Shown: one piece after another, positions 2,109 to 3,161 of the stretch
How positions within the stretch are numbered: the first letter of the stretch is position 1
How the letters are laid out: each line of letters opens with the position of its first letter
DNA from: Kofleriaceae bacterium
GTDB lineage: Bacteria; Myxococcota_A; Polyangia; Haliangiales; Haliangiaceae
Assembly (NCBI GenBank): GCA_018058095.1
Contig: JAGPCO010000035.1
Location: 1-57,772 of the forward strand
DNA length: 57,772 nucleotides
Direction of reading: 5' to 3'
The notes under the pieces: generated by a model
What the model was told of the DNA's origin: nothing
Seen by the model: the letters and a program-made list of their open reading frames with translations, nothing else
The model's database searches: none
Program-made: the position numbers and the translations under genes

Positions 2109-2447
2109 TTACTGCGCGCGCTCGATCCGGACCTTGGTGCGGCCACCGGCCCGCTCGACCGCGACGGTCCACGGCCGGCAGCACACCGCGCAGTCCTCGA
2201 CCATCACGCCGGTGCTGTCGGGGTCGACGTACAGCTCGACCCACTCACGACAGTAAGGGGCCGGGAACGGGCAAGTCGATCGATGCGCGCGGTCGAGGCG
2301 CCCCGCGGGCAAGGCGCGACGAGGGAGCATACCCGTCGGTACGTGACCGAGGAGCAACGAAGCCCCCGGGGATGGATCGGCCGCGCGCGCGACCGAGTTG
2401 CCCGTTCCCGGCCCCTAAGGGCAGCGGACGTTGACCACCTCGTCCAT
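2109..2447 (-). pseudogene. CPXCG-type Cys-rich zinc-ribbon protein, split by an insertion element
   Basis: The reading frame starts with ATG at 2447, 6 bp after the hisIE stop, and runs M-D-E-V-V-N-V-R-C-P before hitting TAG at the edge of the 159-bp element at 2257-2415. Removing the element and one copy of the TAA duplication restores a continuous 58-residue frame. Its centre reads RCPYCREWVELYVD and then VEDCAVCCRPW, the two cysteine knuckles of the CPXCG-motif small-protein family, whose members are about 60 residues long. As found, the first knuckle is destroyed. A restart inside the element at 2357 would make an 82-residue product lacking the first proper CPYC, which I consider unlikely to be functional. 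The intact family is a presumed small zinc protein of unknown role. The rebuilt frame strongly supports a recent disruption. Confidence 0.85.
2257..2415. mobile_element. 159-bp MITE-like palindromic insertion element
   Basis: The element has perfect 18-bp terminal inverted repeats, GGGGCCGGGAACGGGCAA at 2257-2274 and its complement at 2398-2415. It is flanked by TAA on both sides (2254-2256 and 2416-2418), consistent with a 3-bp target-site duplication. Inside the termini a second inverted repeat pairs GCGCGCGGTCGA (about 2286-2297) with TCGGCCGCGCGC (about 2377-2388) with one G-U pair, and the centre holds two small hairpins (around 2319-2338 and 2337-2353). It has no open frame of its own, so if mobile it is non-autonomous. 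It sits inside the CPXCG gene, and precise removal restores that gene. Which transposase family moves it cannot be told from this window. Confidence 0.85.
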
Positions 2448-2453
2448 GAGGCC

Positions 2454-3161
2454 TCAGGCATCGCGCGGCGGGCGGGCCGCCTTCTCGGCCAGGCCGCTCA
2501 CGCCGGCGCGGCGGTCGAGCTCGGCCATGACCGCGGCCAGCGGGATGTGGCGGTGGACCAGGCCGGCCAGGGTGTGGAACAGCAGGTCGGCCGCCTCGGC
2601 CACGACCCGGGCGTCGGGGCCGTCGCCGGTCAGCTCCGCGCACAGCTCGGCCTGCTCCTCGGCGATCTTGGCGCAGATGGCCGGCGCGCCACCGTCGAGC
2701 AGGCGCCGGGTGTAGCTGGTCGAGCCGGTGGCGTGGTCACGCCGGGCCACCATCGTGTGCTCCAGCTCGGCCAGCGCCGCCAGCGCAGGGCGCGCCACCG
2801 GCGCCGCGCCGGGCACGCCGTCGTCGGTGTGACCGTCGTCGCGGGTGAAGAAGCAGGTGGTGGCGCCGGTGTGGCAGGCCGGCCCGCGCGGGTGGGCCCG
2901 GGCCAGGATGGTGTCGCCGTCGCAGTCGAGCCGGAGCTCGACCAGCTCGAGGCCAAAGCCCGAGGTCTCGCCCTTGCGCCACAGGGCCCGGCGCGAGCGC
3001 GACCAGAAGTGGAGCCACCCGGTGTCGCGGGTGCGCTCGAGGGCCTCGGCGTTCATCCACGCCATCATGAGGACCACGCCCGTCGTCGCGTCCTGCACCA
3101 CCGCCGGCACCAGGCCGCGGTCATCCCAGCTCGGCTGCATCGCCATGGTGCCCTCGGTCAT
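2454..3161 (-). CDS. hisIE: Bifunctional phosphoribosyl-AMP cyclohydrolase / phosphoribosyl-ATP pyrophosphatase
   Basis: This 235-residue cytoplasmic enzyme catalyses histidine biosynthesis steps 2 and 3. The N-terminal HisI domain (about 12-115) carries the metal-binding DCDGD at 79-83 and the zinc cysteine motif [10 protein letters not shown] at 94-103. The C-terminal HisE domain (about 130-225) shows the pyrophosphatase helices with TSYTRRLL, the acidic EEQAEL segment and EAADLLFH. Length and domain order match the usual fused HisIE. No other his genes are in the window, so the pathway is dispersed. The small CPXCG gene follows after 6 bp and was probably co-transcribed before its disruption. 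The ATG at 3161 is used; a second in-frame ATG six codons on is also possible. Confidence 0.95.

Follow-up and report, generated by a model that had tools for sequence, protein, structure and literature searches.

A 159-bp MITE inside a CPXCG gene of a Kofleriaceae bacterium, and the covarying hairpin core that it shares with differently ended elements across Myxococcota

The analysed window is a stretch of 57,772 nt from Kofleriaceae bacterium GCA_018058095.1 (contig JAGPCO010000035.1, positions 1-57,772 of the forward strand), near the start of which a small minus-strand gene of the CPXCG type is split by a palindromic insert. The 159-bp segment with perfect 18-bp inverted ends that had been noted by the initial annotation is indeed present at 2257-2415, and we place it on the plus strand, which is the folding (GA-rich) strand of its core; its left terminal inverted repeat, GGGGCCGGGAACGGGCAA, occupies 2257-2274 (plus strand), and its perfect complement occupies 2398-2415 (minus strand), both being evident from the sequence and from a pattern search of the genome. 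A TAA target-site duplication lies at 2254-2256 and again at 2416-2418. The 5′ part of the interrupted gene, with its ATG at 2447, covers 2416-2447, and the 3′ part, down to the stop codon, covers 2109-2253 (both minus strand), the insertion site being within the codons CCT TAC; the upstream neighbour, a hisI/hisE fusion gene with PF01502 and PF01503 domains (2454-3161, minus strand), is intact. Excision of the element together with one TAA restores, as had been predicted, a 58-aa minus-strand ORF from the ATG at 2447, and the rejoined product, MDEVVNVRCPYCREWVELY...ERAQ, matches PF14255 (Cys_rich_CPXG) in a profile search with an E-value of 2.1e-12. A TTG inside the element also opens a frame running into the CPXCG remainder (2109-2357, minus strand), and its 82-aa product is still recognised by PF14255 (E 1.2e-9), with the inverted repeat supplying one of the cysteines (CPFPAPYC).

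With its 159 bp, the element is too short to code for a transposase, and its identity as a miniature inverted-repeat transposable element (MITE) can be considered settled. A REP/RAYT reading was rejected, since inverted ends accompanied by target duplications are of the DDE type. That a small non-autonomous element was recently inserted here, as had been proposed, finds support in identical copies, in TNA duplications and in CPXCG orthologues that are uninterrupted in 7 of 15 same-genus genomes. These seven orthologues show 67-72% identity and none carries the insert, let alone as conserved coding sequence, while the other eight genomes searched yielded no match to the gene. No HisIE was found in the 1.5 kb flanking the CPXCG gene on each side in the relatives examined (seven or eight), so that orthology is judged by sequence alone and the uninterrupted genes do not represent syntenic empty sites.

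The source genome contains at least 40 element-related places at E<=1.8e-13, which is a lower bound, since these are the 40 of 236 first-look candidates that were scored. Further copies of the element thus exist: sixteen places span the full length from 1 to 159, and four copies, including the one in the window, are letter-identical. The 18-bp end, with up to two mismatches allowed, has 27 matches in the source genome, and the reversed pattern has none. Two end subfamilies, GGGGCCGGGAACGGGCAA and GGGCCCGSGAAGGGGCAA, can be distinguished there, and the same interior also occurs in elements with quite different ends (CTAGTGCTCCGACCGGG); in at least three of the 40 places (L028, L030 and L143), the ends are of the CTAG or another type, and it is the interior that produces the match. 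The flanking triplets are identical in 9 of the 16 full-length copies, being TAA, TCA, TGA or TTA, and differ between the two sides in the other seven; across copies, the TAA duplication of the initial annotation therefore widens to TNA. When relatives were searched with the whole element, the 159-bp query matched 23 of 36 genomes (source included) at E<=0.001, the weakest matches, near 1e-3, probably being due to chance. A second short palindromic repeat, GCAGCCTGCTAG / CATCCTGCTAG, adjoins four of the MITE copies in the source genome, on the right flanks of L015 and L148 and on the left flanks of L022 and L151.

In 11 of the 16 source-genome copies, the triplet on the gene side is an in-frame stop codon, a frame being accepted if it had 120 codons or more, a GC3 no lower than 0.85, and a GC3 exceeding GC2 by 0.2 or more. 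By this criterion, 35 of the 920 TNA sites in the window would count as stop codons, as would 1 of its 27 TAA/TTA sites. Stop-codon placement is weak elsewhere (G019, 2/12; G026, 0/5; G152, 0/4; G127, 2/2; G015, 0/1; G012, 0/1), amounting to 15 of 41 copies in the source genome and the six others together, in a count from which L061 was left out and for which L331 gave no element. As the duplication restores the stop codon, insertions at such sites should spare the protein, and, as many other TNA sites fall within genes, purifying selection must account for part of the excess. Source-genome copies probably persist in part because their TNA target is often a stop codon that the duplication would restore. 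The window copy is an exception, in that its gene is broken.

Folded as RNA, the element reaches -121.5 kcal/mol (z -10.1), with none of 200 shuffles folding equally well. The strong folding of the transcript anticipated by the initial annotation is therefore borne out, but its inner repeat and two small hairpins resolve into one long imperfect hairpin. The window gave no Rfam match at gathering score, and the region 2200-2470 gave none at E<=10. Within the hairpin lies a conserved 86-nt core (2295-2380, plus strand), which scores 102.6 bits with our covariance model R1, this copy itself being among the R1 training rows. In the structure-free alignment A1, composed of 27 cores chosen out of 52 distinct core strings, two motifs stand out: the first, beside the outer helix, consists of AAGGC on the 5′ strand (2311-2315) and AACGAA on the 3′ strand (2356-2361), and the second, under the apical stem, pairs GGAGC (2324-2328) with GTGAC (2343-2347) through a tandem GA mismatch, all on the plus strand. 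The helix has the appearance of a ladder, in which tandem GA/GA mismatches are separated by single or double Watson-Crick steps.

A hairpin of 21 pairs fits A1 with 89.9% of cells paired and with changes on both sides at 15 pairs, and its covariation of 0.439 compares with 0.142 (sd 0.015) in shuffled alignments and with no more than 0.115 when the structure is slid; RNAalifold, unaided, predicts 17 pairs of the same hairpin. The lone pair between two tandem-GA steps is C-G in 13 cores, G-C in 11 and U-A in one, and is unpaired in two. The indels and compensatory changes in the aligned cores led us to reject a coding interior. A larger alignment, A2, composed of 102 model hits from 100 loci chosen out of more than 200 and fitted to the structure model, is 92.4% paired, with a covariation of 0.577 versus 0.146 in shuffled controls, although one of five measures, the number of pairs changed on both sides, was matched by 13 of 500 shuffles. 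At the paired positions of A2, the GA strand has 140 G-U and 10 A-C combinations, against 197 and 95 expected if columns were independent, so that A-C is depleted ten-fold and G-U 1.4-fold; in A1 the corresponding counts are 33 and 4, or 17 and 4 if one column pair is set aside. A purely double-stranded DNA role would be expected to deplete the two about equally, and the asymmetry indicates that the fold appears to be selected on the GA strand, as RNA or as single-stranded DNA. Core variants with a longer inner helix were seen in L060, L061, L114 and L138 (genomes G015 and G023); the lengthened helix of L060 is ACCGGAGCGGAGC...GTGAGCACCGGAAGCGCAGC, and the layout of these variants is between that of the short core and that of ERIC.

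The core was detected with R1 in 79 of 282 genomes of the phylum, representing 67 of 187 genera (Infernal with stricter filters, E<=0.001), at least three of these genomes (G000, G019 and G029) having supplied R1 training sequences. Clear inverted ends were found at 80 of 96 core loci (96 of the 102 model hits were used), giving a median element length of 164 and an interquartile range of 160-169 within an imposed limit of 140-200 bp. These ends fall into 22 single-linkage clusters, an approximate number, as the clustering threshold was uncontrolled; the largest, with 41 loci, is mainly of the GGGNCC/TNA type, and the next two are CTAG types. We regard it as well supported that a portable, covarying hairpin core, folding on one strand, is carried by about 22 kinds of ends. 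Among named genomes, a first pattern, probably too strict, found nothing, and a second recovered five loci, all in a single Myxococcales MAG, JANXXE01. Plasmid and phage records did not match the core, and viral contigs yielded just two stretches, with chance-like R1 scores of 9.4 and 10.8 bits. At positions 371-647 of L146, on contig C210 of the source genome, a 73-bp unit containing half of a core is tandemly repeated 3.8 times at 96%, and this array runs into a full core at 610-695 (58.7 bits).

The initial annotation had also suggested looking for a transposase gene with matching ends; none was found for the end type of the window element. End-pattern searches for an autonomous partner in seven draft genomes returned MITE-sized pairs only. 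The 3-bp TNA duplication is shared with the IS5 superfamily, a TNA target being typical of its IS1031-like elements, but searches with PF13359, with PF01609 and with the end pattern did not reveal an IS5-type transposase flanked by window-type ends: DDE_Tnp_4 (PF13359) was absent from all five genomes searched, and DDE_Tnp_1 (PF01609) had matches in 5 of 7 genomes, of which the three in the source genome, one at a contig end, lack window-type ends in the stretch examined. Those in L171, L177 and L179 of the source genome lie near CCGTGC-type or GTGCCC-type repeat arrays. In G152, a longer core-free repeat (L276-L280) has TNA-GGGCTCGCCGGAAAATAA-like ends that resemble those of TNA-type MITEs, and all six of the copies encountered are cut off at contig ends, as would be expected of a multicopy insertion sequence.

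For a different end type, a carrier could be identified. A search of 10 genomes for CTAGSAGCCYGACCCAAGAC gave, among the matches listed, one pair 1.4 kb apart in G056, and this pair (L264) encloses a 415-aa transposase of the IS1182 family (NF033551, E 1e-90). Its 20-bp end, CTAGGAGCCTGACCCAAGAC, is identical in a MITE from the same genome, L265, the other end of which is one base off. While L265 contains the core (50.5 bits), the 1.4-kb, transposase-coding L264 has no core match at E<=1, so that, with ends of this type, the core does not belong to the insertion sequence itself. The ends of L264 differ from those of the window element.

We compared the central core between loci according to whether they share a host genome or a type of ends, using 84 of the 96 loci, taken before the end filter. 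Core identity averages 0.822 for pairs from the same genome with different ends (46 pairs), 0.695 for pairs from different genomes with the same ends (36 pairs), and 0.675 for pairs sharing neither (2879 pairs); the pairs share members and are not independent, and the value of 0.822 was reached in none of 2000 permutations of genome labels. In 11 of the 46 same-genome pairs both members are of the TNA type, with related or miscalled ends (for example, L191/L224), and the remaining 35 average 0.80, as summed from the printed list. Within the source genome, the CTAG-type L028 is 0.86-0.91 identical to the TNA-type copies and 0.75 identical to the divergent L021; in G035, L127 is 0.81-0.85 identical to the TNA types, and in G026, L137 is 0.70-0.87 identical to the others. 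The lowest same-genome identities, 0.64-0.75, come from G207, G272, G020, G021, G026 and G000. Such a pattern, in which the core follows the genome, could be due to exchange or conversion within genomes, to replacement of the ends within host lineages, or to a host partner shaping the core.

Overall, we favour, with reasonable confidence, a MITE with a portable core that would fold on one strand and meet a host factor as RNA. Its 18-bp ends would be cut and joined by a putative DDE-type transposase acting in trans, with insertion at TNA and duplication of the target; the module of about 86 nt would be selected to fold on one strand, as the unequal depletion of G-U and A-C suggests; and the core would function at the RNA level, in transcripts reading through the insertion, where a host factor would meet it, since its sequence varies more with the host genome than with the type of ends. 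Given the rest, we put that last step, the core acting as RNA with a host partner, at an even chance. With respect to the genes whose stop codons are targeted, the core is in sense orientation in seven cases and antisense in eight, which does not favour a strand-specific role in the mRNA.

Single-stranded DNA may take the place of RNA in this scheme, in that a hairpin extruded during replication could aid excision, target joining or protection, thereby serving transposition itself. Strand asymmetry would be expected here too, G-T being better tolerated than A-C in single-stranded DNA; the even orientation of the core with respect to genes would agree with it, as would its presence with many end types, which is what a general mobility aid should display. 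We nevertheless judge it unlikely, since target duplications and inverted ends are signs of double-strand DDE transposition, for which no need for such a hairpin is known. Ordinary MITE descent is also rather improbable: a single ancestor of about 160 bp would have had its ends drift along with transposases, leaving the core as a slower-changing, functionless remainder. The near-constant length across end types, seen after the 140-200 bp filter, and the GAGGCGCC...GGATGGATCG flank common to many of them would suit such descent, and cores would likewise follow genomes under vertical inheritance in each genome lineage; but compensatory changes and the one-strand asymmetry between G-U and A-C need selection on the fold, and the ends are of distinct kinds (TNA with GGGNCC, and CTAG types), one kind being that of the core-free IS1182 element. 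Misplacement of repeats into the gene by assembly or binning is highly implausible, for although the genome is a draft of 227 contigs and the L007 and L008 copies end at contig ends, the window copy is 2.2 kb away from the start of a contig of 57.8 kb, its target duplication is clean, the interrupted reading frame closes exactly, and the flanks differ among the 16 full-length copies.

Descriptions of MITEs usually centre on the ends and regard the interior as leftovers of the parent insertion sequence. Here it is the interior that is constant and the ends that vary, and the interior is closer to that of elements in the same genome than to that of elements with the same ends. If a portable core meeting a host factor as RNA is indeed the correct explanation, small transposons carry a common functional passenger, and its host partner can be sought. 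What goes beyond the initial annotation is the covarying, phylum-wide interior hairpin, the stop-codon placement in the source genome and the likeness to ERIC.

Other short dispersed repeats invite comparison, including Correia/NEMIS, RUP, YPAL and REP/REPIN; a simple terminator reading was set aside. PMC2229807 lists Correia/NEMIS, RUP and YPAL among the mobile elements of small size that are transcribed into stem-loops, and the sizes and targets of all four groups are, according to this review, unlike those of the window element. Among the titles listed by full-text searches, none dealt with such a core in Myxococcota, which, with subscription journals mostly uncovered, is weak evidence of novelty, and a search for Myxococcus in PMC10969869 and PMC2267715 gave no result.

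The likeness to ERIC extends to the order of parts. In published descriptions, ERIC is a small imperfect-palindrome MITE with a target duplication, the transcript of which forms one long stem-loop (PMC2229807, PMC2267715); ERIC, also known as IRU or RU-1, ranges over Enterobacteriaceae and Vibrionaceae (PMC10969869); and its RNA hairpin alters mRNA stability in Yersinia in an orientation-dependent manner (PMC10969869, PMC2229807, PMC2267715). Our E. coli set comprised five ERIC loci at four distinct sites. Like the Myxococcota core, these copies have an outer helix, an AAGGC/AACGCA asymmetric loop, an inner helix, and then GGAGC, a stem-loop and GTGAC, with tandem GA mismatches. However, ERIC is 127 bp long and the window element, with GGGGCC ends, is 159 bp; ERIC is less GC-rich (about 0.58 versus 0.72); and it differs by its TA ends and by an additional CCCC/GGGG helix inside.

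Models of the Myxococcota core did not recover the E. coli ERIC copies. A descriptor of the shared motifs, composed after both ERIC and the core were known, matches 12 of the 96 Myxococcota core loci in total, the window copy (L001) being one of these, and two of the five ERIC loci (two of the four distinct sites), and has no matches in 100 kb of E. coli, in one strand of 40 Mb of random sequence or among 2 million random hairpins. In the reverse direction, a model for which four ERIC copies of E. coli were the sole input yielded 13 hits at E<=10 in 183 kb of Myxococcota loci, and its best eight hits (E 6e-4 to 0.21, from seven genomes) all lie on the core and on the GA strand, two of them, in L210 and L251, being near-identical. 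Two of the other five hits are on the core, one partly overlaps it, and two are off it (L210:1967 and L016:2962). The window copy is unmatched by the ERIC-only model at E<=10, as are most of the roughly 100 cores, and, among three alignments displayed, a clear register at both motifs is confined to L202. Hairpin-rich sites may attract any hairpin model, a caveat that is lessened by the agreement in strand. The same model also picks up a stretch of E. coli K-12 between ycbX and rlmKL (L262, 6370-6455; 19.4 bits, E 0.0075), which is perhaps a decayed ERIC copy.

A common origin or a shared function of the core and ERIC is thus plausible, although unproven. We would propose, tentatively and with less than even confidence, that the centre of ERIC and the Myxococcota core represent one ancient portable hairpin module, which would have crossed phyla and unrelated transposon ends while being tuned in each host to a conserved factor that binds RNA or single-stranded DNA. 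If so, ERIC would be one member of a cross-phylum superfamily, and the missing transposase of ERIC would be just one among numerous possible carriers; for ERIC, a typing marker of long standing, there would then be relatives that allow ends, carriers and covariation to be studied.
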